DNA of 64,000 nucleotides from Rhodococcus rhodochrous (GTDB taxonomy: Bacteria; Actinomycetota; Actinomycetes; Mycobacteriales; Mycobacteriaceae), in the NCBI RefSeq assembly GCF_014854695.1, contig NZ_CP027557.1:558001-622000 (forward strand), given 5' to 3'. Each line of letters begins with the position of its first letter. The first letter of the stretch is position 1. The notes under the pieces were generated by a model that saw only the letters and a list, made by a program, of their open reading frames with translations, was not told the origin of the DNA and made no database searches. Of this stretch, positions 50,687 through 61,879 are shown piece after piece. Made by a program: the position numbers and the translations under genes.

Positions 50687-53645
<2,959 letters not shown>

Positions 53646-53646
<1 letters not shown>

Positions 53647-54233
53647 TGACCGCGCCGGAGGCCGGAGAGAACGGTGCGATCGACCCGCGGGCCTTCCGCA
53701 CCGTGCTCGGGCAGTTCTGCACCGGCGTCACCGTCATCACCACCACCGAGGACGACGGGACGCCTGTGGGATTCGCGTGCCAGTCGTTCGCGGCGTTGTC
53801 GCTCGACCCGCCGCTCGTACTGTTCTGCCCCACGAAGCAGTCACGGTCGTGGGCGGCCATCGAACGAGCGGGCCGCTTCTGCGTCAACGTCCTCGCCGAG
53901 GAACAGCAGGAGACCTGCGCGCGGTTCGGTTCCCGCGAACCCGACAAGTTCGCCGGACTCGACTGGACGCCGTCCCCGTTGGGCTCCCCCGTCCTGACGG
54001 GCTCTCTCGCGCACATCGAGTGCACGGTCGAGACGGTGCACGACGGAGGAGACCACTGGGTGGTGTTCGGTCGCGTCTCGTCGCTGAGCGAGGTGCGCGA
54101 CGAGAAGGAACGCCCGCTGCTCTTCTACCGCGGGCAGTACACCGGGATCGAACCGGAGAAGACGACTCCGGCGCCCTGGCGCGACGATCTCGAAGCGTTC
54201 CTCACCTCCGTCACGGAGGACACCTGGCTGTAG
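53646..54233 (+). CDS. hsaB: 3-HSA hydroxylase flavin reductase subunit
   Basis: This 195-residue HpaC/flavin-reductase-like protein supplies reduced FMN to HsaA. FRTVLGQFCTGVTVITT and VGFACQSFAALSLDPPLVLFCP (about residues 17-60) and the C-terminal LLFYRGQY are family marks. ATG 53646 overlaps the hsaC stop (TAATG), with the ORF otherwise open upstream. A strong hairpin follows the gene. Confidence 0.93.
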
Positions 54234-54309: not shown

Positions 54310-55248
54310 TCAGGAGCGATCGGCGTCGGTCGCGTCGTCCGGTGACTCCTCGTAGTACTCCGTGGTCACGACCCGACGCACCAGGCGCGGCTTGCGCGGC
54401 TGGTCGGTGTCCCCGCCGCCTGCCGTATCCGTCTTCGCGTCAGCCGTGCTCGTGTCGGTGCCGGCCGACTGCGGCGGCGTGAAGTGCGCCGGTCCCGTCG
54501 GTCCCGGACCGACGATCTCCTGCCCGCTGCCGCTGCCGCTGCCGCCGTCGCCGCGGGGAGCCGCGTGGCGGGCCGTGTCCGCCGCCGAGTCCGCGGTCCC
54601 GGACGGTGTCGACGGCGTCGACGCGGTATGCCCGGGCATCGAGTGTTCGAGCGGTTCGTCCCGCTGGCCCTCGCTCGGCCGGTAGTTGCCGGCGATCTCC
54701 TCACGCGCGACGTCGGGCGGTGTCGGTGAATGCCCGGTTCCCGCGGGTGTGGTGGTGCCGTACGTCTCGCCGGTGTGCGGTGTCCCGGTACCTCCCGGTC
54801 CGCCGGCCGCGCCACCGACGAGGCCTCCACCGGCTGTGCTCCGCTCGTCGAGGCCGCTCCGGTCGTCGGTGAACCCGTGTCGGTCGTCGTTGAATCCGCC
54901 CCGATCGCCGGTGGATCCACCCCCTGCAGGGGTGTCCCCGAACCGGCGGTAGTAGCGGTACAGCTCGTCCTCCTCGAGCGGGGTCAGCTCACCGTTCTCG
55001 TCGATGTTCGGGGCGCCGGTGATGGTGTCCTTGTCGAAGGGCAGGCGCACTCCGGTGCTGTCGAGTTCGGCTTCGTCGATGGGGGCGAAGTGCCGGCGCG
55101 TTCCGAACAGACCCGTGACGACCGTGATCCAGGCGGGTCGGCCCGTGTCGTTGTCCAGGTACACCTCTCCCACGCGTCCGAGCTTGTCGCCGTCCGGTCC
55201 GTACGCGGTGGCGCGAGCGAGGGTGTCGATGTCGTCGTTGCTGATCAT
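54310..55248 (-). CDS. PRC-barrel domain protein with disordered tail
   Basis: This 312-residue protein has an N-terminal PRC-barrel/photosystem-H-chain-like domain (about residues 1-105: YGPDGDKLGRVGEVYLD, GLFGTRRHFAPI, LPFDKDTI). The remaining 200 residues are low-complexity Gly/Thr/Asp/Pro/Ser with acidic and polar repeats, then RRVVTTEYYEES near the end. Such stress-linked proteins are common in actinomycetes (YsnF-related group) and have no proven activity. ATG 55248 follows GAGGA; an upstream frame exists but has no similarity. Confidence 0.8.
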   Translation of the reverse strand: MISNDDIDTLARATAYGPDGDKLGRVGEVYLDNDTGRPAWITVVTGLFGTRRHFAPIDEAELDSTGVRLPFDKDTITGAPNIDENGELTPLEEDELYRYYRRFGDTPAGGGSTGDRGGFNDDRHGFTDDRSGLDERSTAGGGLVGGAAGGPGGTGTPHTGETYGTTTPAGTGHSPTPPDVAREEIAGNYRPSEGQRDEPLEHSMPGHTASTPSTPSGTADSAADTARHAAPRGDGGSGSGSGQEIVGPGPTGPAHFTPPQSAGTDTSTADAKTDTAGGGDTDQPRKPRLVRRVVTTEYYEESPDDATDADRS

Positions 55249-55365
55249 GATGTCCTCATCCGTGGGCGATGCGGCTTCCTGCAGTGCGGATGCCCTCCGA
55301 TGAGAGTGACGAAACACTGCCGTTACACCGCTCGCCGTTGCGTCGACCATCCCCGCGTGTTATCC

Positions 55366-55379
55366 ATATTGTCAACAAT
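55366..55379. promoter_or_regulatory. GntR-type inverted repeat at the aminotransferase promoter
   Basis: ATTGTCAACAAT (55368-55379), five-base arms and a two-base centre, followed by CC, is the same sequence as at 59663-59674. Upstream CATATT may be a -10 for the aminotransferase. Arms ATTGT/ACAAT suit FCD-type GntR regulators. A small hairpin CGAGGG/CCCTCG (55393-55410) lies in the leader. Confidence 0.6.
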
Positions 55380-55429
55380 CCGACAACCGGCACGAGGGTT
55401 CGCGCCCTCGGCTGTTCGGAGGGATCGTC

Positions 55430-56671
55430 ATGACCCGTCTTTCACCCCGCCTGCTGCAGGCAACGCCCGTCACCGTCGACCACGCCGAGGGCTGTTACAT
55501 CCACGGCACCGACGGACGTCGGTATCTCGACTTCACCGCCGGCATCGGCGTCACGAGTACCGGCCACTGTCACCCGCACGTCGTCGAGGCCGCCCGCCGG
55601 CAGATCGGCTCCCTCATCCACGGGCAGTACACGACCGTGATGCACCGGCCCCTGCTCGAACTCACCGAACGCCTGGGCACGGTGCTCCCCGAAGGGCTCG
55701 ACTCACTGTTCTTCGCCAACTCGGGCAGCGAGGCCGTCGAGGCGGCGCTGCGTCTGGCCCGGCAGGCGACAGGACGACCCGGAATCGTCGTCTTCCACGG
55801 CGGTTTCCACGGCCGGACCGTCGCCGCCGCCACGATGACGACCTCGGGAACCCGCTTCTCCGCAGGGTTCTCGCCGCTCATGGGCGGTGTACACGTCGCT
55901 CCCTTCCCCACGGCCTATCGCTACGGTTGGTCGGAGGAGGAATCGACCGATTTCGCCCTGCAGGAACTGGATTACCTGTTCGCGACTCTCGTGGCGCCGG
56001 ACGAGATCGCGGCCTTCGTCGTCGAACCGGTCCTGGGCGAGGGCGGTTACGTCCCCGGCAACACCAGGTTCTTCCAGGGATTGCGGCAGCGGGCCGACGA
56101 ACACGGCATCCTGCTCGTCTTCGACGAGATCCAGACCGGATTCGGGAGGACGGGAAAGTTCTTCGGCCATCAGCACTTCGACGTGCGGCCCGACATCATC
56201 ACCATCGCCAAGGGCCTCGCGAGCGGTTTCCCGCTGTCGGGTATCGCCGCCTCCGAGGAGCTCATGGAACGCGCCCGTCCGGGATCGCAGGGCGGCACGT
56301 ACGGGGCGAATGCGGTCTCGTGCGCGGCGGCCGTGGCCACTCTCGACGTGATCGAGAAGGAGGGGCTCGTCGACAACGCCGCCGTGCGTGGACGTGAACT
56401 GCTCTCCGGCGCACGGGAGAACACGACCGACGCCATCGGCGACGTGCGCGGCCTCGGTCTCATGGTGGGCCTCGAGTTCACCACGGACGGAGCACCCGAC
56501 CGGGAACGGGCGACCGCAGCGCAACAACTCGCCGCGCAGAAGGGGCTGCTGCTGTTGACCTGCGGTGCACACATGAACGTGGTGCGCATGATCCCGCCGT
56601 TGATCGTCACCGCCCAGCAGATCGAGGATGCGCTCGGGATCTGGTCCGAGGTCCTCGCCGAGGTCCGATAA
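55430..56671 (+). CDS. Class III (PLP) aminotransferase
   Basis: This 413-residue PLP enzyme of the omega-amino-acid/GABA/ornithine aminotransferase class has SGSEAVEAALRLAR, GGFHGRT, the cofactor Asp232 in VFDEIQTGFGRTG and the Schiff-base Lys261 in IITIAKGLASGFPLSG. It should move an amino group from an omega-amino acid or amine to a 2-oxo acid; the substrate is unknown. ATG 55430 has a GGAGGGATCGTC leader. DUF3830 follows after 22 bases, in one transcript ending at 57205-57237. Confidence 0.88.
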   Translation: MTRLSPRLLQATPVTVDHAEGCYIHGTDGRRYLDFTAGIGVTSTGHCHPHVVEAARRQIGSLIHGQYTTVMHRPLLELTERLGTVLPEGLDSLFFANSGSEAVEAALRLARQATGRPGIVVFHGGFHGRTVAAATMTTSGTRFSAGFSPLMGGVHVAPFPTAYRYGWSEEESTDFALQELDYLFATLVAPDEIAAFVVEPVLGEGGYVPGNTRFFQGLRQRADEHGILLVFDEIQTGFGRTGKFFGHQHFDVRPDIITIAKGLASGFPLSGIAASEELMERARPGSQGGTYGANAVSCAAAVATLDVIEKEGLVDNAAVRGRELLSGARENTTDAIGDVRGLGLMVGLEFTTDGAPDRERATAAQQLAAQKGLLLLTCGAHMNVVRMIPPLIVTAQQIEDALGIWSEVLAEVR

Positions 56672-56693
56672 TCCGTCGAACGAGGGAGTCCGC

Positions 56694-57188
56694 GTGGCCC
56701 GATACATCACGATCACTCTCGACAAACGCGACATCACGTGCAGAGCACGGCTTCTCGACGACGAGGCGCCGCTCACCTGCGCGGCGGTGTGGGACGCCCT
56801 GCCGCAGAGCGGCTCGGCGTTCCATGCCAAGTACGCCCGCAACGAGCTCTACACCCTCGTCCCGAGGATCACCGCGGCACCGCACCGGGAGAACCCGACG
56901 GTGACGCCGATCCCGGGGGATGTGTGCCTGTTCGACTTCGAACCGTGGGAGATCGGTAATTCCGCATACGGTTACGAACCCGGATCGCAGGCCCACGCGC
57001 AGCAGGGAGCAACCGACCTCGCGTTGTTCTACGGCCGGAACAATCTGCTGCTCAACGGCGACGTGGGGTGGGTGCCGGGCAACGTCTTCGCGACCATCGA
57101 GGAGGGACTGCCCGAACTCGCCGTCGCGTGCAACGACCTGTGGATCCAGGGGGTCGTGGGGGAGACGTTGAGCTTCGCACGGGCATAG
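56694..57188 (+). CDS. DUF3830 (cyclophilin-like) protein
   Basis: This 164-residue protein belongs to DUF3830, which has a cyclophilin-like barrel and no assigned function. GDVCLFDFEPWEIG, AYGYEPG and ALFYGRNNLLLNGDVGWVPGNVFATI are its markers. It recurs next to amidases, racemase-like enzymes and transporters in amide or amino-acid catabolic loci. GTG 56694 follows GAGGGAG and gives a start (ARYITITLDKRD) typical of the family. Confidence 0.82.
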   Translation: MARYITITLDKRDITCRARLLDDEAPLTCAAVWDALPQSGSAFHAKYARNELYTLVPRITAAPHRENPTVTPIPGDVCLFDFEPWEIGNSAYGYEPGSQAHAQQGATDLALFYGRNNLLLNGDVGWVPGNVFATIEEGLPELAVACNDLWIQGVVGETLSFARA

Positions 57189-57204
57189 ACGGCCACTGCA
57201 CGGG

Positions 57205-57237
57205 AAACGGCACCGCGTACTTCGCGCGGTGCCGTTT
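57205..57237. terminator. Bidirectional terminator between DUF3830 and amidase genes
   Basis: AAACGGCACCGCG (57205-57217) pairs perfectly with CGCGGTGCCGTTT (57225-57237) around a seven-base loop, with A and T runs on both sides. It ends both converging transcripts. Confidence 0.92.
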
Positions 57238-57257
57238 CTCTTGGTGCTCCTCCTGTC

Positions 57258-58628
57258 TCAGCTCAATGCGTACTCGGCGAATCGCGCGACGGCGAGCAGC
57301 AGGTCGTCCGAGTGCCGCGGCCCGACTATCTGCAGACCCACGGGCAGACCCGCCGAAGTGGTGCCCACAGGAATGCTGATGGCCGGCTGCTGCGTGAGAT
57401 TGAAGGGATAGGTGAACGGGGTCCACTGCGGCCACGAGGTCAGCGACGAACCCGACGGCACGTCGTGACCGGCCTCGAAGGCGGGGATCGGCATCGTCGG
57501 CGTGATCAGCACGTTGTACTTCTGGTGGAAGATCCCCATCGTGATGCCGACGGCCGCCGCGACCGCGCGGGCCTCGAGATAGTCCACGGCACCGAGTTGT
57601 TCGCCGTGGGACCACACGCGTCCGAGGCCGGGATCCACCTTGTCCCGCGTGCCCTCGGGGAAGGTCTTCAACATCGTGGCCGCGCCTGCCGCCCAGAGGT
57701 TCTCGAAGGCCTCGAGCGGGTCGGTGAAACCGGGATCGGCGGCGGTCACCCGCAGTCCGGCCTCGTCGAGGACGCGGACCGCCCGGTCGACGATCTTACC
57801 GACCTCGGGGTCCACGTCGACGTAGCCGAGGGTCTTGGAGTAGGCGACGTCCATCCCCACCACCTCGCGGTTGAGGCCGCCGCGGAAGGTCGTCAGGGGC
57901 GGCGCCAGGGCCGTCGGGTCCCGGGGATCGGGCAGCGCGAGGATGTCGGTGAGCAGCGCCGCGTCCTCGACCGTCCGGGTGATCGGCCCGGCGTGCGCGA
58001 GCGGCCCGAACGGGCTGGCGGGAAAGATCGGGATCCGGCCGTGGGTGGGCTTGAATCCGACGACGCCGCAGAACGATGCGGGGATGCGGATGCTGCCCCC
58101 ACCGTCGGTGCCGACGGAGCACGGACCGAAGCCGGCCGCGACCGCCGCCGCGCTGCCACCGGACGAGCCACCGGCGGTCTTCGTCGTATCGGCGGGATTC
58201 GTGGTCACCCCGTACAGGGCCGAATCGGTCACCGCCTTCCACGCGATCTCCGGAGTGGTGGTCTTGCCCAGCAACACCATTCCGTCCTCGCGCAACCGGG
58301 CCGCGACCGGGCTGTCGACGTTCCAGTCCTGGTTCTCGTCGATGGCCTGCGAACCCCGCAGGGTCGGCCATCCGTCGGTGAGGAAGACGTCCTTGATCGA
58401 GATGGGGACCCCGTCGAGCAGGCCCTTCGAATAGCCGGTCCGCCACCGCTCCTCGGACCTGCGCGCCTGGTCGAGTGCCTTCTCCTCGTCGACGAGGCAG
58501 AACGAGTTGATCTCGCGATCGTGCGCCGAGATCCGATCGAGCACGGCCCGCGTCACCTCGACGGGAGACAACTCGCCCGAGGAGAACGCCGACACGAGTT
58601 CGACGGCGGTCATGTCTGTGGGCTCCAT
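57258..58628 (-). CDS. Amidase-signature hydrolase
   Basis: This 456-residue amidase-signature enzyme has the Ser-cisSer-Lys triad: Lys79 (VPISIKDV), Ser155 (AGGSSGGSAA) and Ser179 (TDGGGSIRIPA). It hydrolyses a C-N amide bond; the substrate is unknown. It follows the D-2-hydroxyacid dehydrogenase after 32 bases on the same strand, so both come from the promoter at 59642-59670. ATG 58628 has GGAGGCACG before it. Confidence 0.9.
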   Translation of the reverse strand: MEPTDMTAVELVSAFSSGELSPVEVTRAVLDRISAHDREINSFCLVDEEKALDQARRSEERWRTGYSKGLLDGVPISIKDVFLTDGWPTLRGSQAIDENQDWNVDSPVAARLREDGMVLLGKTTTPEIAWKAVTDSALYGVTTNPADTTKTAGGSSGGSAAAVAAGFGPCSVGTDGGGSIRIPASFCGVVGFKPTHGRIPIFPASPFGPLAHAGPITRTVEDAALLTDILALPDPRDPTALAPPLTTFRGGLNREVVGMDVAYSKTLGYVDVDPEVGKIVDRAVRVLDEAGLRVTAADPGFTDPLEAFENLWAAGAATMLKTFPEGTRDKVDPGLGRVWSHGEQLGAVDYLEARAVAAAVGITMGIFHQKYNVLITPTMPIPAFEAGHDVPSGSSLTSWPQWTPFTYPFNLTQQPAISIPVGTTSAGLPVGLQIVGPRHSDDLLLAVARFAEYALS

Positions 58629-58660
58629 CGTGCCTCCTTCTCGTCGGACGATGCCGACTC

Positions 58661-59635
58661 TCACGCGCCGGGCACGTAACCCAGCTTCTTGTCCACCACG
58701 TTCCGAAGCGGTTCGCCACTGCGGTGACGGCGGAAGTTGTCGACGAAGACGTCCACCAGCGCGTCGCGCCAGCCGACGAAATCTCCCGAATTGTGCGGGG
58801 TGATCGAGACGTTCGGCATGTCCCAGAGCGGATTGCCCTCGGGGAGCGGTTCGACGTCGAGCACGTCGAGCGCGGCACCGGCGATCGTGCCCGACCGCAG
58901 AGCCTCGACCAGGTCGTCGGTGCGCACGAGTTCGCCACGCCCGACGTTGACGAAGCGTGCCTGCGGCTTCATCGCGGCGAACATCCGGGCGTCGAACAGG
59001 TGCCGGGTCTGATCCGTGAGAGGTGCGGCCACGATGACGAAATCGACGTCGGCGAGAGCGGCCGGAAGGTCGGCGGTCGCGGTGACGGTGCCGAAATCGG
59101 GGTCGTCGTCGCGAGAACGCCGGCCCGAGCCCTGGACCGTCATCCCCACGGCGGAGAGCAGGCGCGCGATCGCGCGACCGATCGGACCGGTGCCGACGAC
59201 GAGCACGGAGCGACCTGCGATGCGTTCGGACTCCCGGTGCTTCCAGATGTGCTCGTGCTGGAGCCGCAGCGATTCGGGGATGTCCTTGGCGAAGGAGAGT
59301 ATCTGGGCGAGCACGTATTCGGCGATCGCCCCGTCGAAGACTCCGCGGGAGTTGGTGACGACCACATCGCTGTCGCGCAGCTCGGGGAACATGAGGGCGT
59401 CGACCCCGGCCGCGGCGACATGGATCCACTTCAGGGACGCTGCGGCGTGCCAGGCTGCGGGCAGCGCGTCGGTGAGGAAGTCGTATGCGAAGAGGATGTC
59501 GGCGCCGTCGAGCGCGTCGGCCAGGCCGGAGGCGTCGGTGTAGCGCACCGTGGCGTGTTCGGCCACCGGGGCCATCCACGCACGATCCGGCACGGCTTCG
59601 GCATGAAGCACTGCAACGACCGGCTGGGCATCCAC
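58661..59635 (-). CDS. D-isomer-specific 2-hydroxyacid dehydrogenase
   Basis: This 324-residue NAD(P) enzyme has the Rossmann motif VVGTGPIGRAIARLL in the middle and the catalytic Arg, Glu and His in FVNVGRGELV, LDVEPLPEGNPLW and TPHNSG. It interconverts a 2-oxo acid and a D-2-hydroxy acid. It starts with GTG 59635 (VDAQPVVAVLHAE), 6 nt after a -10 of a near-consensus promoter, with no Shine-Dalgarno (leaderless). A frame upstream is open but begins beyond the promoter. Confidence 0.88.
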   Translation of the reverse strand: MDAQPVVAVLHAEAVPDRAWMAPVAEHATVRYTDASGLADALDGADILFAYDFLTDALPAAWHAAASLKWIHVAAAGVDALMFPELRDSDVVVTNSRGVFDGAIAEYVLAQILSFAKDIPESLRLQHEHIWKHRESERIAGRSVLVVGTGPIGRAIARLLSAVGMTVQGSGRRSRDDDPDFGTVTATADLPAALADVDFVIVAAPLTDQTRHLFDARMFAAMKPQARFVNVGRGELVRTDDLVEALRSGTIAGAALDVLDVEPLPEGNPLWDMPNVSITPHNSGDFVGWRDALVDVFVDNFRRHRSGEPLRNVVDKKLGYVPGA

Positions 59636-59641
59636 GTTGAC

Positions 59642-59674
59642 ACCGTATGAGCGCCTCGTATTATTGTCAACAAT
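59642..59674 (-). promoter_or_regulatory. Near-consensus leaderless promoter overlapped by GntR-type operator
   Basis: On the minus strand TTGACA (59665-59670), a 17-base spacer and TACGGT (59642-59647) end 6 nt before the dehydrogenase GTG. The inverted repeat ATTGTCAACAAT (59663-59674) covers the -35. It also lies 41 bases before the divergent racemase start (59716), so one site can control both directions. Confidence 0.7.
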
Positions 59675-59715
59675 CCTCAAGGCTGAGGGAACTCTTGACG
59701 AAGCCGAGGGACCGT

Positions 59716-60456
59716 ATGGAACTGAACATTCCCGAATTCGAAGGTCCTCTGGCTCAGCGGGGCATCGGTGTGATCGCACCTTTCGATCTCGCCCTGGAAC
59801 GAGAACTGTGGCGATGGGCGCCGCTCGAGGTCACCCTGCACCTCGCTCGAACCCCCTACGAGCCGGTGCCGGTCAGCCGTGCCATGGCCGAGCTGGTGTC
59901 CGACCGACGGCACCTGATGGTCGCGACCCGCGACGTGCTGTCGGTGGAGCCGGAAGTTGTTGCCTATCTGTGTACCTCGGGCAGTTTCGTCAACGGGGTG
60001 GCCTACGAGAAGACCCTGTGCGACGCGATCTGCGAAGCGGGCGCATCGTGCGCGGTCACGACCTCCGGAGCGCTGCTCGAAGCCCTCCACACACTCGACC
60101 TCACCCGCATCTCGGTGATCACCCCCTACGACCGGGAACTCACGGACCTGCTGCACGACTTCCTGCAGGAGGCCGGAACCGAGGTCGTCCGGTCGTCACA
60201 TCTCGGGCTCGGCGGCGGCATCTGGAAGGTCAACTACCGCACCATCGCCGAACACATCATCGGGGCCGATACCCCGGACGCACAGGCGATCTTCGTCAGT
60301 TGCACCAACCTGCCGACCTACGACCTGATCGCGCCACTCGAACGGGAACTCGGCAAGCCGGTCCTCACGGCCAACCAGCTCACCATCTGGGCGTGCCTGG
60401 GACGGATGAAGCTGCCCATGACCGGGCCGGGGAAGTGGTTGAGAGGAGTGTTCTGA
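59716..60456 (+). CDS. Asp/Glu racemase-superfamily protein, two-Cys (maleate isomerase-like)
   Basis: This 246-residue protein belongs to the aspartate/glutamate racemase superfamily, nearest in layout to maleate isomerase and related decarboxylases. Both catalytic Cys are present: Cys86 in YLCTSGSFVNG and Cys196 in VSCTNLPTYD. It could isomerise, racemise or decarboxylate a small dicarboxylate or malonate derivative. ATG 59716 follows GAGGGA; earlier in-frame codons cover the operator. A paralogue with altered active site begins at the next base after its stop. Confidence 0.85.
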   Translation: MELNIPEFEGPLAQRGIGVIAPFDLALERELWRWAPLEVTLHLARTPYEPVPVSRAMAELVSDRRHLMVATRDVLSVEPEVVAYLCTSGSFVNGVAYEKTLCDAICEAGASCAVTTSGALLEALHTLDLTRISVITPYDRELTDLLHDFLQEAGTEVVRSSHLGLGGGIWKVNYRTIAEHIIGADTPDAQAIFVSCTNLPTYDLIAPLERELGKPVLTANQLTIWACLGRMKLPMTGPGKWLRGVF

Positions 60457-61197
60457 ATGCATCGTGACCGTCCGACCGTCGGGATCGTCTATCCGGATCA
60501 TGCCGCCGAGGACGACTACCCGTTCGCCGCCGAACTCCTGGGGGTGAACCTGCCCGTCGCCCACATCTACGGCACCGATCTGCACGCCGTTCCCGAACTC
60601 CTCGACCTCGGCGGCCCGGCCAAGCTCGCCGGGGGAGCGGCGCAGTTCGCGGACGAGTCCCTCGACGCCCTCGTGTGGGCGTGCACGTCGGGCAGCTTCG
60701 TGTACGGGCCCGAGGGGGCACGCACCCAGGTCGAGCAGCTCTCCCGGGACGCGGGAGATGTGCCCACGACGAGCACGAGCATCGCGTTCGTCGCCGCACT
60801 GCAGGCGCTCGGCATCACCCGGGTGGCCGTGGCGGCGAGCTATCCGCGGGACGTCGCCGAACTGTTCGTCGCCTTCCTCGCGGACGCCGGTGTCGACGTC
60901 GTCTCGCTCGCCGATGCCGGCATCGACACCGCCGCCGAGGTCGGAACCCTGACCGACGAGGCCGTCCTCGAATTCGCGAGGACCAACGATCATCCCGACG
61001 CGCAAGCGGTCCTGGTCCCCGACACCGCGATGCACACGCTGCGGATCATGCGGGAGCTCGAGAAGGAGACCGGTAAGCCGGTCCTGACCGCCAACCAGGT
61101 CACCGTGTGGCACGGCCTGGAACTCGCCGGATATACAGTGGAATGCCCGGAGCTGGGCTCACTGTTCGAGGAGGATACCGATCATGGTGCTCGGTGA
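60457..61197 (+). CDS. Asp/Glu racemase-superfamily paralogue lacking the second Cys
   Basis: This 246-residue paralogue of the preceding protein keeps Cys76 (WACTSGSFVYG) but has Asp189 in place of the second Cys (VPDTAMHT against VSCTNLPT). Both proteins share TGKPVLTANQ-type C-terminal segments, so they arose by tandem duplication. Single-Cys members of the superfamily include arylmalonate decarboxylase, but there the second Cys is kept and the first is lost, the reverse of this case. ATG 60457 abuts the upstream stop. It may be an altered enzyme or a partner subunit. Confidence 0.83.
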   Translation: MHRDRPTVGIVYPDHAAEDDYPFAAELLGVNLPVAHIYGTDLHAVPELLDLGGPAKLAGGAAQFADESLDALVWACTSGSFVYGPEGARTQVEQLSRDAGDVPTTSTSIAFVAALQALGITRVAVAASYPRDVAELFVAFLADAGVDVVSLADAGIDTAAEVGTLTDEAVLEFARTNDHPDAQAVLVPDTAMHTLRIMRELEKETGKPVLTANQVTVWHGLELAGYTVECPELGSLFEEDTDHGAR

Positions 61198-61879
61198 TCT
61201 GGAAGATCTACGTCCTGTCACCCGGCCGTCCACGGCCGAGCTCATCGCCGAACAGATCCGGTCGGCCATCGTCCGGGGTGCGCTCGGTCCCGGGGAGCAG
61301 CTGGGGGAGGCCGAACTCGCGGCGCACTTCCAGGTCTCCCGGGGCCCGCTGCGAGAAGCCATGCAGCGGTTGCTGTCCGAAGGTCTGCTCTACAGCATCC
61401 GCAACCGGGGCATCTTCGTCACCGAGCTCACCTTCGACGACGTCGTCGACATCTACCGCAGCCGCTGGGTCATCGAGGGCGGTGCCCTCGACCTGGTGCT
61501 GGACGGCCGTCGCGAACAGACGTGGAAGGCCCTCGAACCGGCGATCGAGGAGATGCGCACCGCCGCCGAACGCGAGGACGCCACCGGTGTCTCGGACGGC
61601 GACCGACGTTTCCACGAGATCCTCGTGGCCAGTGCCGGCAGTCCGCGGCTCGTGCGGGCGGCCCGCACGCTGCTCGTCGAGACGCGGATGTGCCTCGGCG
61701 CGTTGCAGACCACCTATCCCGACCTGCACGTGCAGGTGGACGAGCACGTCGTGTTGCGGGAGGCGATCCGCACCGCCGACCGGGAGGAGGTGCGGCGTCT
61801 GCTCGACGAGCACCTGCACGACACGGTCACCCGGCTCCGCGAGCGTCAGAACGTCGACGGCGTGATCGCGTCCGGCTGA
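61184..61879 (+). CDS. GntR-family regulator, FCD (FadR-like) type
   Basis: This 231-residue regulator has an N-terminal winged helix (AEQIRSAIVRGALGPGEQLG; VSRGPLREAMQRLLSEGL) and a helical FCD ligand domain (YRSRWVIEGGALDLV; RFHEILVASAGSPRL), which usually binds a carboxylate with a metal. It overlaps the second racemase by 14 bases and is thus in the same transcript. It is the natural candidate to bind the two ATTGTCAACAAT sites flanking the locus. Confidence 0.87.
   Translation: MVLGDLEDLRPVTRPSTAELIAEQIRSAIVRGALGPGEQLGEAELAAHFQVSRGPLREAMQRLLSEGLLYSIRNRGIFVTELTFDDVVDIYRSRWVIEGGALDLVLDGRREQTWKALEPAIEEMRTAAEREDATGVSDGDRRFHEILVASAGSPRLVRAARTLLVETRMCLGALQTTYPDLHVQVDEHVVLREAIRTADREEVRRLLDEHLHDTVTRLRERQNVDGVIASG

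Follow-up and report, generated by a model that had tools for sequence, protein, structure and literature searches.

A GntR-controlled gene cluster of Rhodococcus rhodochrous with a probable role in ectoine or 5-hydroxyectoine use

Which compound is consumed by the seven genes at positions 55366 to 61879 of a 64,000-nucleotide stretch of Rhodococcus rhodochrous DNA (contig NZ_CP027557.1, positions 558,001 to 622,000; the whole stretch is called the window below)? An earlier note on this DNA had described the genes, grouped around one GntR regulator of the FCD type, as a catabolic locus and had left its substrate unnamed. Ectoine or 5-hydroxyectoine, which protect cells against salt stress, can now be proposed. 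A substrate of the ectoine type is very likely, judged from gene context in relatives and not in the window genome itself, and on balance we favor the reading that these genes make up the upper part of a regulon, under GntR(FCD) control, that serves the use of these compounds.

The locus and its operator

The seven genes form three transcription units, with all positions, strands and families as first described. A Pfam and NCBIfam scan of ten proteins (the seven of the cluster and three encoded upstream) confirmed every gene as well as the single FCD-type GntR regulator. The features are, in order:

55368-55379, operator 1, ATTGTCAACAAT, 50 bp before the aminotransferase start
55430-56671, plus strand, class III aminotransferase (AT), gamma-aminobutyrate (GABA)-aminotransferase-like; Pfam PF00202, 399 bits
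56694-57188, plus strand, DUF3830 protein with a GTG start; Pfam PF12903, 202 bits
57202-57240, hairpin between the converging units; 65 nt folded, -37.7 kcal/mol, z -5.7
57258-58628, minus strand, amidase-signature hydrolase (AMI); NCBIfam NF004815, 749.8 bits, cut-off 506
58661 to about 59635, minus strand, NAD-type D-2-hydroxyacid dehydrogenase (DH); Pfam PF02826, 179.5 bits
59637-59664, plus strand, promoter-like TTGACA-16-TATTAT, 11 of 12 consensus matches; one found, 0.5 expected
59663-59674, operator 2, ATTGTCAACAAT, between the divergent DH and R1 genes
59716-60456, plus strand, R1, EutA/maleate-isomerase-like; Pfam Amdase, 84.9 bits; TIGR02990 (EutA), 98.7 bits, cut-off 318
60457-61197, plus strand, R2, EutA-like paralogue; TIGR02990, 113.4 bits, cut-off 318
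61184-61879, plus strand, GntR/FCD regulator; Pfam FCD, 74 bits, and GntR, 62.3 bits, both above their cut-offs

The locus start at 55366 is 2 bases ahead of operator 1. The DH gene probably starts with a GTG, as read from relatives, and R1 more likely starts at the ATG at 59716, because its open reading frame as listed, from 59647, would contain operator 2. The GntR gene overlaps the R2 gene by 14 bases.

The earlier note had seen the same inverted repeat at two promoters, and indeed ATTGTCAACAAT is present at 55368 and 59663. With up to two mismatches allowed, ATTGTCAACAATCC is found in the window only at these two places, against 0.03 expected, and none of 100 shuffles had two or more sites. 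The whole 6.09 Mb genome holds ATTGTCRACAAT in three places, the two at the locus and C1:2683512. This third site lies 88 bp upstream of the gene for an FAD-linked dehydrogenase of 1001 residues (FADox). Both FADox and a succinate-semialdehyde dehydrogenase (SSADH) are encoded behind it (C1:2678947-2683424), the SSADH gene (C1:2678947-2680377) being directly downstream of FADox and its product 58.9% identical to the SSADH of the Rhodococcus tibetensis locus L003. Because the third site precedes this pair, the SSADH missing from the locus probably belongs to the regulon. The operator ties together AT-DUF3830, AMI-DH, R1-R2-GntR and the remote FADox and SSADH genes, and the locus regulator has the winged helix and the FCD domain of its class. 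The claim of one dedicated regulon is supported by this shared operator and single regulator, with a pathway that extends beyond the window to FADox and SSADH.

In related loci the operator, with at most one mismatch, is found in 87 of 89 aminotransferase upstream regions and 80 of 91 R1 upstream regions, compared with about 3% of random stretches taken from these loci, a count in which many loci are close relatives and some of the control stretches overlap real sites. At the locus itself the end of the promoter-like match overlaps operator 2, and GntR would occupy the operator over the promoter until released by a pathway intermediate. The hairpin that the earlier note had placed at the end of the two converging units is strong, with none of 200 shuffles as good, but it is not followed by a T-run, and a terminator-pattern scan listed nothing there.

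Conservation of the gene set

If the genes serve one pathway, as had been claimed, they should occur together in other genomes, and they do so in several genera. We scanned for DUF3830 with one genome per species and took the best 80 of at least 576 relatives, all 80 records being Rhodococcus, Nocardia or Janibacter. All seven genes are present in 64 of these 80 loci, and in 52 of the 61 where the stretch is 18.9 kb or longer, R1 being scored as present when two R-type matches were found. In some of the nine longer stretches that are incomplete the amidase is farther off, behind inserted genes, and others have no amidase half in the stretch. In more remote actinobacteria most of the genes remain neighbors, with order and strands altered, and therefore function, not inherited order, appears to hold it together. 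DUF3830 is unevenly spread: 57 of the 201 family genomes have it, as do 11 of 15 in the genus and 33 of 296 in the phylum sample. The SSADH gene stands divergently beside the aminotransferase gene in 60 of the 76 loci where this place is visible, which is not so in the window.

Links to ectoine genes in relatives

Physical or regulatory links to the ectoine-specific genes ectABCD, ectD, EhuB and DoeA-like were found in relatives; in the window genome itself, no such link was found. In genome G187 (locus L159), ectA, ectB, ectC and ectD are directly upstream of DUF3830, with 27 bases between the end of ectD (9677) and the start of DUF3830 (9705). In R. tibetensis L003 an ectD gene, for an ectoine hydroxylase (413.2 bits, cut-off 336.5), follows GntR after 35 bases. 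The order R1-R2-GntR-ectD is also found in L203 (G023) and L204 (G195), and in G145 the spacing between operator and ectD is the same as in L003.

GATTGTCAACAAT was found at 144 places, in 90 of the 201 family genomes scanned. EctD is encoded within 4 kb of an exact operator at 14 of 114 places, against 0.15 expected, ten of them in genus g4, three in g24 and one in g29. In L192 and L193 of g4, DH and ectD are on one side of the operator and the aminotransferase, FADox and SSADH on the other. For 36 of 42 strong DUF3830 places (42 of 51 were entered), an exact operator is no more than 12 kb away. Distances from EctC to the operator were taken at 12 places selected by hand and should not be read as a count. 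Co-occurrence of DUF3830 and EctC in the family was set aside as evidence, being uninformative because 174 of the 201 genomes have EctC.

The ectoine transporter component EhuB scores above its cut-off in three genomes of genus g34, where its match ends lie 180-250 bp away from DUF3830, and is at the cluster edge in G421. It is found in 24 of 296 genomes, and in 11 of the 15 genomes with a strong DUF3830 match (a hand count over lineages that are not independent). Transporters are swapped among the loci, the set including ProP-like, BCCT, Ehu and amino-acid permease types. The earlier note had remarked that no transporter is encoded, which is true of the locus; the window genome has an operon for an EhuB-EhuC-EhuD-EhuA-like ABC transporter elsewhere (L186:6360-9555; EhuB 209.5 bits, cut-off 190.9), with no operator in the 14 kb stretch around it.

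Two proposed entry modules behind one operator

Sister clusters lie at the operator in genomes that lack DUF3830. Of these, L197 and L198 encode the aminotransferase, FADox, SSADH, GntR, a DoeA-like protein, a class I/II aminotransferase, an M20 deacylase, a ProP-like transporter and DH, and most of these genes are in the stretches of L194, L196, L201/L202 and L210. The identities of the GntR proteins are 37-46%, the DoeA-like proteins are 42-45% identical to R. johnstonii DoeA, and in L194 and L196 an operator is 5-7 kb away from ectB and ectC. The lower part is mostly common to the DUF3830 and DoeA clusters, namely DH, aminotransferase, SSADH and an FAD- or NAD-dependent dehydrogenase.

A DoeA/EutD homologue is present in 26 of 80 genomes tested and within 8 kb of the operator in all 26. 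The 80 genomes were picked for DUF3830 or the operator, being 51 with a strong DUF3830 match and 29 of the 47 with an exact operator and no DUF3830 match; six genomes with weaker DUF3830 matches (G050, G108, G153, G163, G173 and G193) were excluded from the DoeA and EctD tests. Among the 51, 41 lack a DoeA-like protein at E 1e-70, and the other ten have both. The 41 include the window genome, where no EutD/DoeA (TIGR02993) match reaches E <= 1e-70. The 29 operator-only genomes comprise 16 with DoeA and 13 with neither module. We propose that DUF3830, the R1/R2 pair and AMI are perhaps an entry module alternative to DoeA, possibly for hydroxyectoine, with a chemistry that we infer below.

The distribution of EctD bears on the substrate of this module. 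Scored at E <= 1e-60 (108 genomes; the cut-off would give 97), EctD is found in 41 of 41 DUF3830-only genomes, one of 16 DoeA-only genomes (below the cut-off), four of ten with both modules and nine of 13 with neither. Fisher's test for the first two groups gives 7e-13, in a sample where whole genera move together. We regard it as an evenly balanced question whether 5-hydroxyectoine is the direct substrate. That the module acts on ectoine itself as a DoeA substitute, and not specifically on 5-hydroxyectoine, is a serious possibility, if short of probable, and would suit the 41 strong DUF3830 genomes without a DoeA-like protein and the six DUF3830 genomes outside the family without EctD. For the hydroxylated compound argue the EctD distribution just given, ectD inside the operon in L003, L203 and L204 and beside DUF3830 in L159, and the need of R. 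pomeroyi for EutABC in hydroxyectoine use (PMC8739950).

Further arrangements were seen at the level of these modules. One stretch, L138, combines the DoeA-like protein, class I/II aminotransferase and M20 deacylase with DUF3830, the aminotransferase, DH and operator sites, and has no amidase, R1 or R2. Clusters L208 and L206 have operator-linked AMI, DH and GntR (L208 also R1 and R2) and no DUF3830 in the stretch, so the modules can split further. Among the control genomes, Haloferax volcanii matches DUF3830 and EutD (the latter below the cut-off) and Deinobacterium chartae matches DUF3830, and therefore DUF3830 and EutD may meet outside actinobacteria.

Proposed pathway

The removal of an amide, the transfer of an amino group and a 2-oxo/D-hydroxy-acid step, as put forward in the earlier note, would suit the gene set; the substituted malonate that it also considered is not needed. 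The best solved relatives of AT are PuuE and GabT, and AT is under the cut-off in each of the 25 NCBIfam matches listed, of 69. In AMI, residues K79, S155 and S179, which we take to be the Lys-Ser-Ser triad, are kept in at least 95% of 129 aligned sequences. DH has the NAD-binding domain and keeps R235, E264 and H283, presumably the catalytic Arg/Glu/His, in at least 95% of 105 aligned sequences. R1 and R2 both have EutA as their best NCBIfam match and belong to the maleate isomerase/arylmalonate decarboxylase superfamily by Pfam and solved relatives. R1 retains both superfamily cysteines (99 of 99 aligned sequences), whereas R2 has the first cysteine in 96 of 100 and, unlike the superfamily, an invariant Asp at the second cysteine site, the motif being PDTA in 100 of 100. 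The plasmid matches listed for R2 are mostly annotated EutA or carry no annotation. For DUF3830, a profile search of solved structures gave 3kop ('uncharacterized protein') and two noise-level matches, and the plasmid collection gave no match at E 1e-5.

In the pathway that we propose, the first step, on the tetrahydropyrimidine ring, would fall to DUF3830 and the R1/R2 pair. Either R2 (Cys/Asp) or R1 (Cys/Cys) would take the C4 proton with departure of the 5-hydroxyl, and ring opening would yield 2-oxo-4-acetamidobutyrate and ammonia without a second aminotransferase. DH would reduce this product to (R)-2-hydroxy-4-acetamidobutyrate, from which AMI would remove acetate to give (R)-4-amino-2-hydroxybutyrate, a GABA-like compound. 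AT would convert the latter to D-malic semialdehyde and SSADH would oxidize it to D-malate, so that the pathway would end in D-malate and not in aspartate. In the sister clusters, DoeA together with the class I/II aminotransferase and the M20 deacylase would arrive at the same 2-oxo acid from ectoine, the aminotransferase forming the 2-oxo acid and the M20 enzyme removing the acetyl group. FADox would finish the route by taking D-malate to oxaloacetate, and in Nocardia a decarboxylating dehydrogenase of the tartrate/D-malate type would take it to pyruvate. We put the D-malate route forward tentatively.

Two non-homologous dehydrogenases pair with SSADH. FADox-family genes are in the cluster beside SSADH in L163, L167, L173 and L175. 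A tartrate-dehydrogenase-family gene is present in 47 loci, all Nocardia records, and in each of the 47 it comes directly after SSADH and in the same orientation. The one Nocardia enzyme scanned scores 492 bits, above the tartrate dehydrogenase cut-off of 470.4. Both families presumably accept D-malate.

Two other pathways were considered and dropped. Pantothenate breakdown, which would use an amidase, a beta-alanine aminotransferase and a dimethylmalate-type dehydrogenase, was abandoned after the ect, ehu and DoeA links were found. For arylmalonate or maleate metabolism, R1 and R2 are far below the arylmalonate decarboxylase NCBIfam cut-off of 225 (75 and 93.3 bits) and the links point elsewhere.

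Alternative explanations and points against the proposal

The aspartate route is a less likely alternative for the lower part. Here ectoine would be opened to N-acetyl-diaminobutyrate, the amidase would deacetylate, AT and SSADH would act as Atf and Ssd toward aspartate, DH and FADox would serve a side reaction, and R1/R2 would act as EutA. A diaminobutyrate-aspartate route is published for eutDE-ssd-atf (PMC13188858, PMC8739950), and the SSADH proteins of L003 and L146 are 46.6% and 49.6% identical to R. johnstonii Ssd, with AT 31.8% identical to Atf. Among solved structures, however, AT is nearest to GABA aminotransferases. DH also recurs in the majority of clusters, whether of the DUF3830 or the DoeA kind, and FADox or the tartrate-type enzyme in many of them, and these enzymes need roles.

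That the hydroxyl is kept and a tartrate-type acid replaces D-malate as the end product is improbable. The Nocardia enzyme that passes the tartrate dehydrogenase cut-off would suit such a product, but the FAD enzyme that takes its position in other loci is similar to enzymes acting on D-2-hydroxyglutarate, D-lactate and glycolate, and the DoeA clusters of genomes without ectD would give no 3-hydroxyl. Least probable is an unrelated amide or cyclic imino compound with the ect, ehu and DoeA links as accidents of neighborhood, for although the amidase, AMDase-like and DUF3830 names suit many compounds and in the window genome neither position nor operator connects the cluster with ect or ehu genes, the links recur in several lineages and DoeA-like is near the operator in every one of the 26 genomes having it, in the set picked for operator or DUF3830.

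A number of observations weigh against the ectoine proposal or parts of it. The window genome has ectABC, ectD and ehuBCDA elsewhere, without the operator. Of the 14 ectD links in relatives, 10 come from genus g4, with three of those ten below the EctD cut-off, and L003 and G145 are possibly one species. The 11 R1 upstream regions without the operator are all from distant loci, some of which carry the site elsewhere in the cluster, and the L139-L141 stretches lack the operator as well as GntR, AT, SSADH and FADox. FADox is also missing from the stretches of the sister clusters L196 and L210. Several proteins miss the cut-off of the family to which they are compared: R1 and R2 (98.7 and 113.4 bits) that of the EutA equivalog (318), the DoeA-like proteins (407-432 bits) that of TIGR02993 (613), FADox (461.6 bits) that of its best NCBIfam match, the D-2-hydroxyglutarate dehydrogenase YdiJ (1350), and the ProP-like transporters in their best match (385-470 bits) one of 544. 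Of the R2 plasmid matches listed, the one with the best identity, H28 (40.4% over 74%), is in no ectoine cluster. The tartrate dehydrogenase name fits a product that keeps the 3-hydroxyl equally well. DUF3830 was given the ring step by exclusion, and the ten genomes with both modules argue against simple replacement. Outside the family, 11 strong DUF3830 genomes divide into five with EctD and six without; no EctC was seen in these six either, which would need to take the compound up from outside, and EctD occurs in five g34 genomes that lack DUF3830. Prior hydroxylation is therefore no general rule.

The full proposal is a doubtful one: that DUF3830, R1 (Cys/Cys) and R2 (Cys/Asp) are a new tetrahydropyrimidine-opening system converting 5-hydroxyectoine, by dehydration and deamination, to 2-oxo-4-acetamidobutyrate in one stage, followed by an undescribed D-malate route that the DoeA-type sister clusters of the family would have in common and that would stand in for the diaminobutyrate-aspartate route, with the EctD of the operon as the first catabolic step in some strains.

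Comparison with known ectoine catabolic systems

The locus probably works like an ectoine catabolic system. It is not a canonical Eut/Doe cluster, because the genome has no EutD match at E <= 1e-70, the locus regulator is not EnuR and the EutA cut-off is missed. With the EutABCDE/DoeABCD systems of Proteobacteria (Sinorhizobium, Ruegeria and Halomonas) it has in common a class III aminotransferase and an SSADH-type dehydrogenase (the pairing is present at family level), an EutA-superfamily protein, a GntR-superfamily regulator and, in some relatives, an Ehu-type transporter. DUF3830, the amidase, the D-2-hydroxyacid dehydrogenase, the R1/R2 pair and the FCD regulator set it apart. EutB, EutC, EutE/DoeB, EnuR and AsnC are absent from the matches listed for the ten locus proteins, with no genome-wide search for EutB, EutC, EutE and EnuR.

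The literature describes EutABCDE/DoeABCD, the diaminobutyrate-aspartate route, regulation by EnuR and AsnC, and uncertain roles for EutABC (PMC5924519, PMC13188858, PMC8739950). A hydroxyacid dehydrogenase gene of undefined role, hdhD, occurs in some ectoine clusters according to a figure legend in PMC5924519, a 2018 review that places ectoine consumers in Proteobacteria only. More recently, Actinomycetota clusters called provisional have been proposed via EutD and EutB homologues (PMC13188858, 2026), and a cluster without EutD would therefore probably escape that search. The main text of this paper contains no mention of Rhodococcus, Nocardia or Streptomyces. Its putative Gram-positive clusters resemble ours in being proposed for Actinomycetota as well and in exchanging MFS, BCCT, Ueh or Ehu transporters between species. 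The Bacillota clusters, like the window locus, have no EnuR, and the Bacillales version differs by a PucR regulator and abgB-thrA-adh genes. The doeBDAC cluster of Tsukamurella (PMC7192451) is likewise a set of ectoine catabolism genes in an actinobacterium; it rests on DoeA and DoeB, of which the sister clusters have DoeA-like and the window genome none. Ectoine synthesis is on record for Brevibacterium (PMC5719810). In a literature search whose coverage leaves out most subscription journals and all preprints, we found no mention of DUF3830 and no description of this cluster.

The EutD-free, FCD-regulated cluster is probably a variant that differs from the known pathway in regulator and enzymes. 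If so, more actinobacteria, among them Rhodococcus, Nocardia and Janibacter, would count as likely ectoine consumers. The proposal would also give DUF3830 its first function and the Cys/Asp EutA paralogue a role, bear on how hydroxyectoine loses its hydroxyl, and be useful for building actinobacteria that make ectoine without consuming it.

Neighboring genes and additional observations

A second D-2-hydroxyacid dehydrogenase-like gene of the window genome (L187:6203-7174) follows ectC on the same strand, its product being 33% identical to the window DH. In several lineages (L142, L144, L145, L146, L192, L193 and L206), clusters with DUF3830, ectD or amidase-DH also include a gene of the Glu/Leu/Phe/Val-dehydrogenase-like type. 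Next to the locus, an open reading frame of 346 aa (54310-55350) occupies the place of the relatives' divergent SSADH gene; its homologues have the equivalent place in L002, L006, L012, L171 and L172, none with SSADH beside the aminotransferase. Directly upstream are the steroid-ring degradation genes for HsaD, HsaC and HsaB (51865-54233; all above their NCBIfam cut-offs), which are part of another system. An hsaB gene is near the cluster in several Rhodococcus relatives too, so the neighborhood is shared there.

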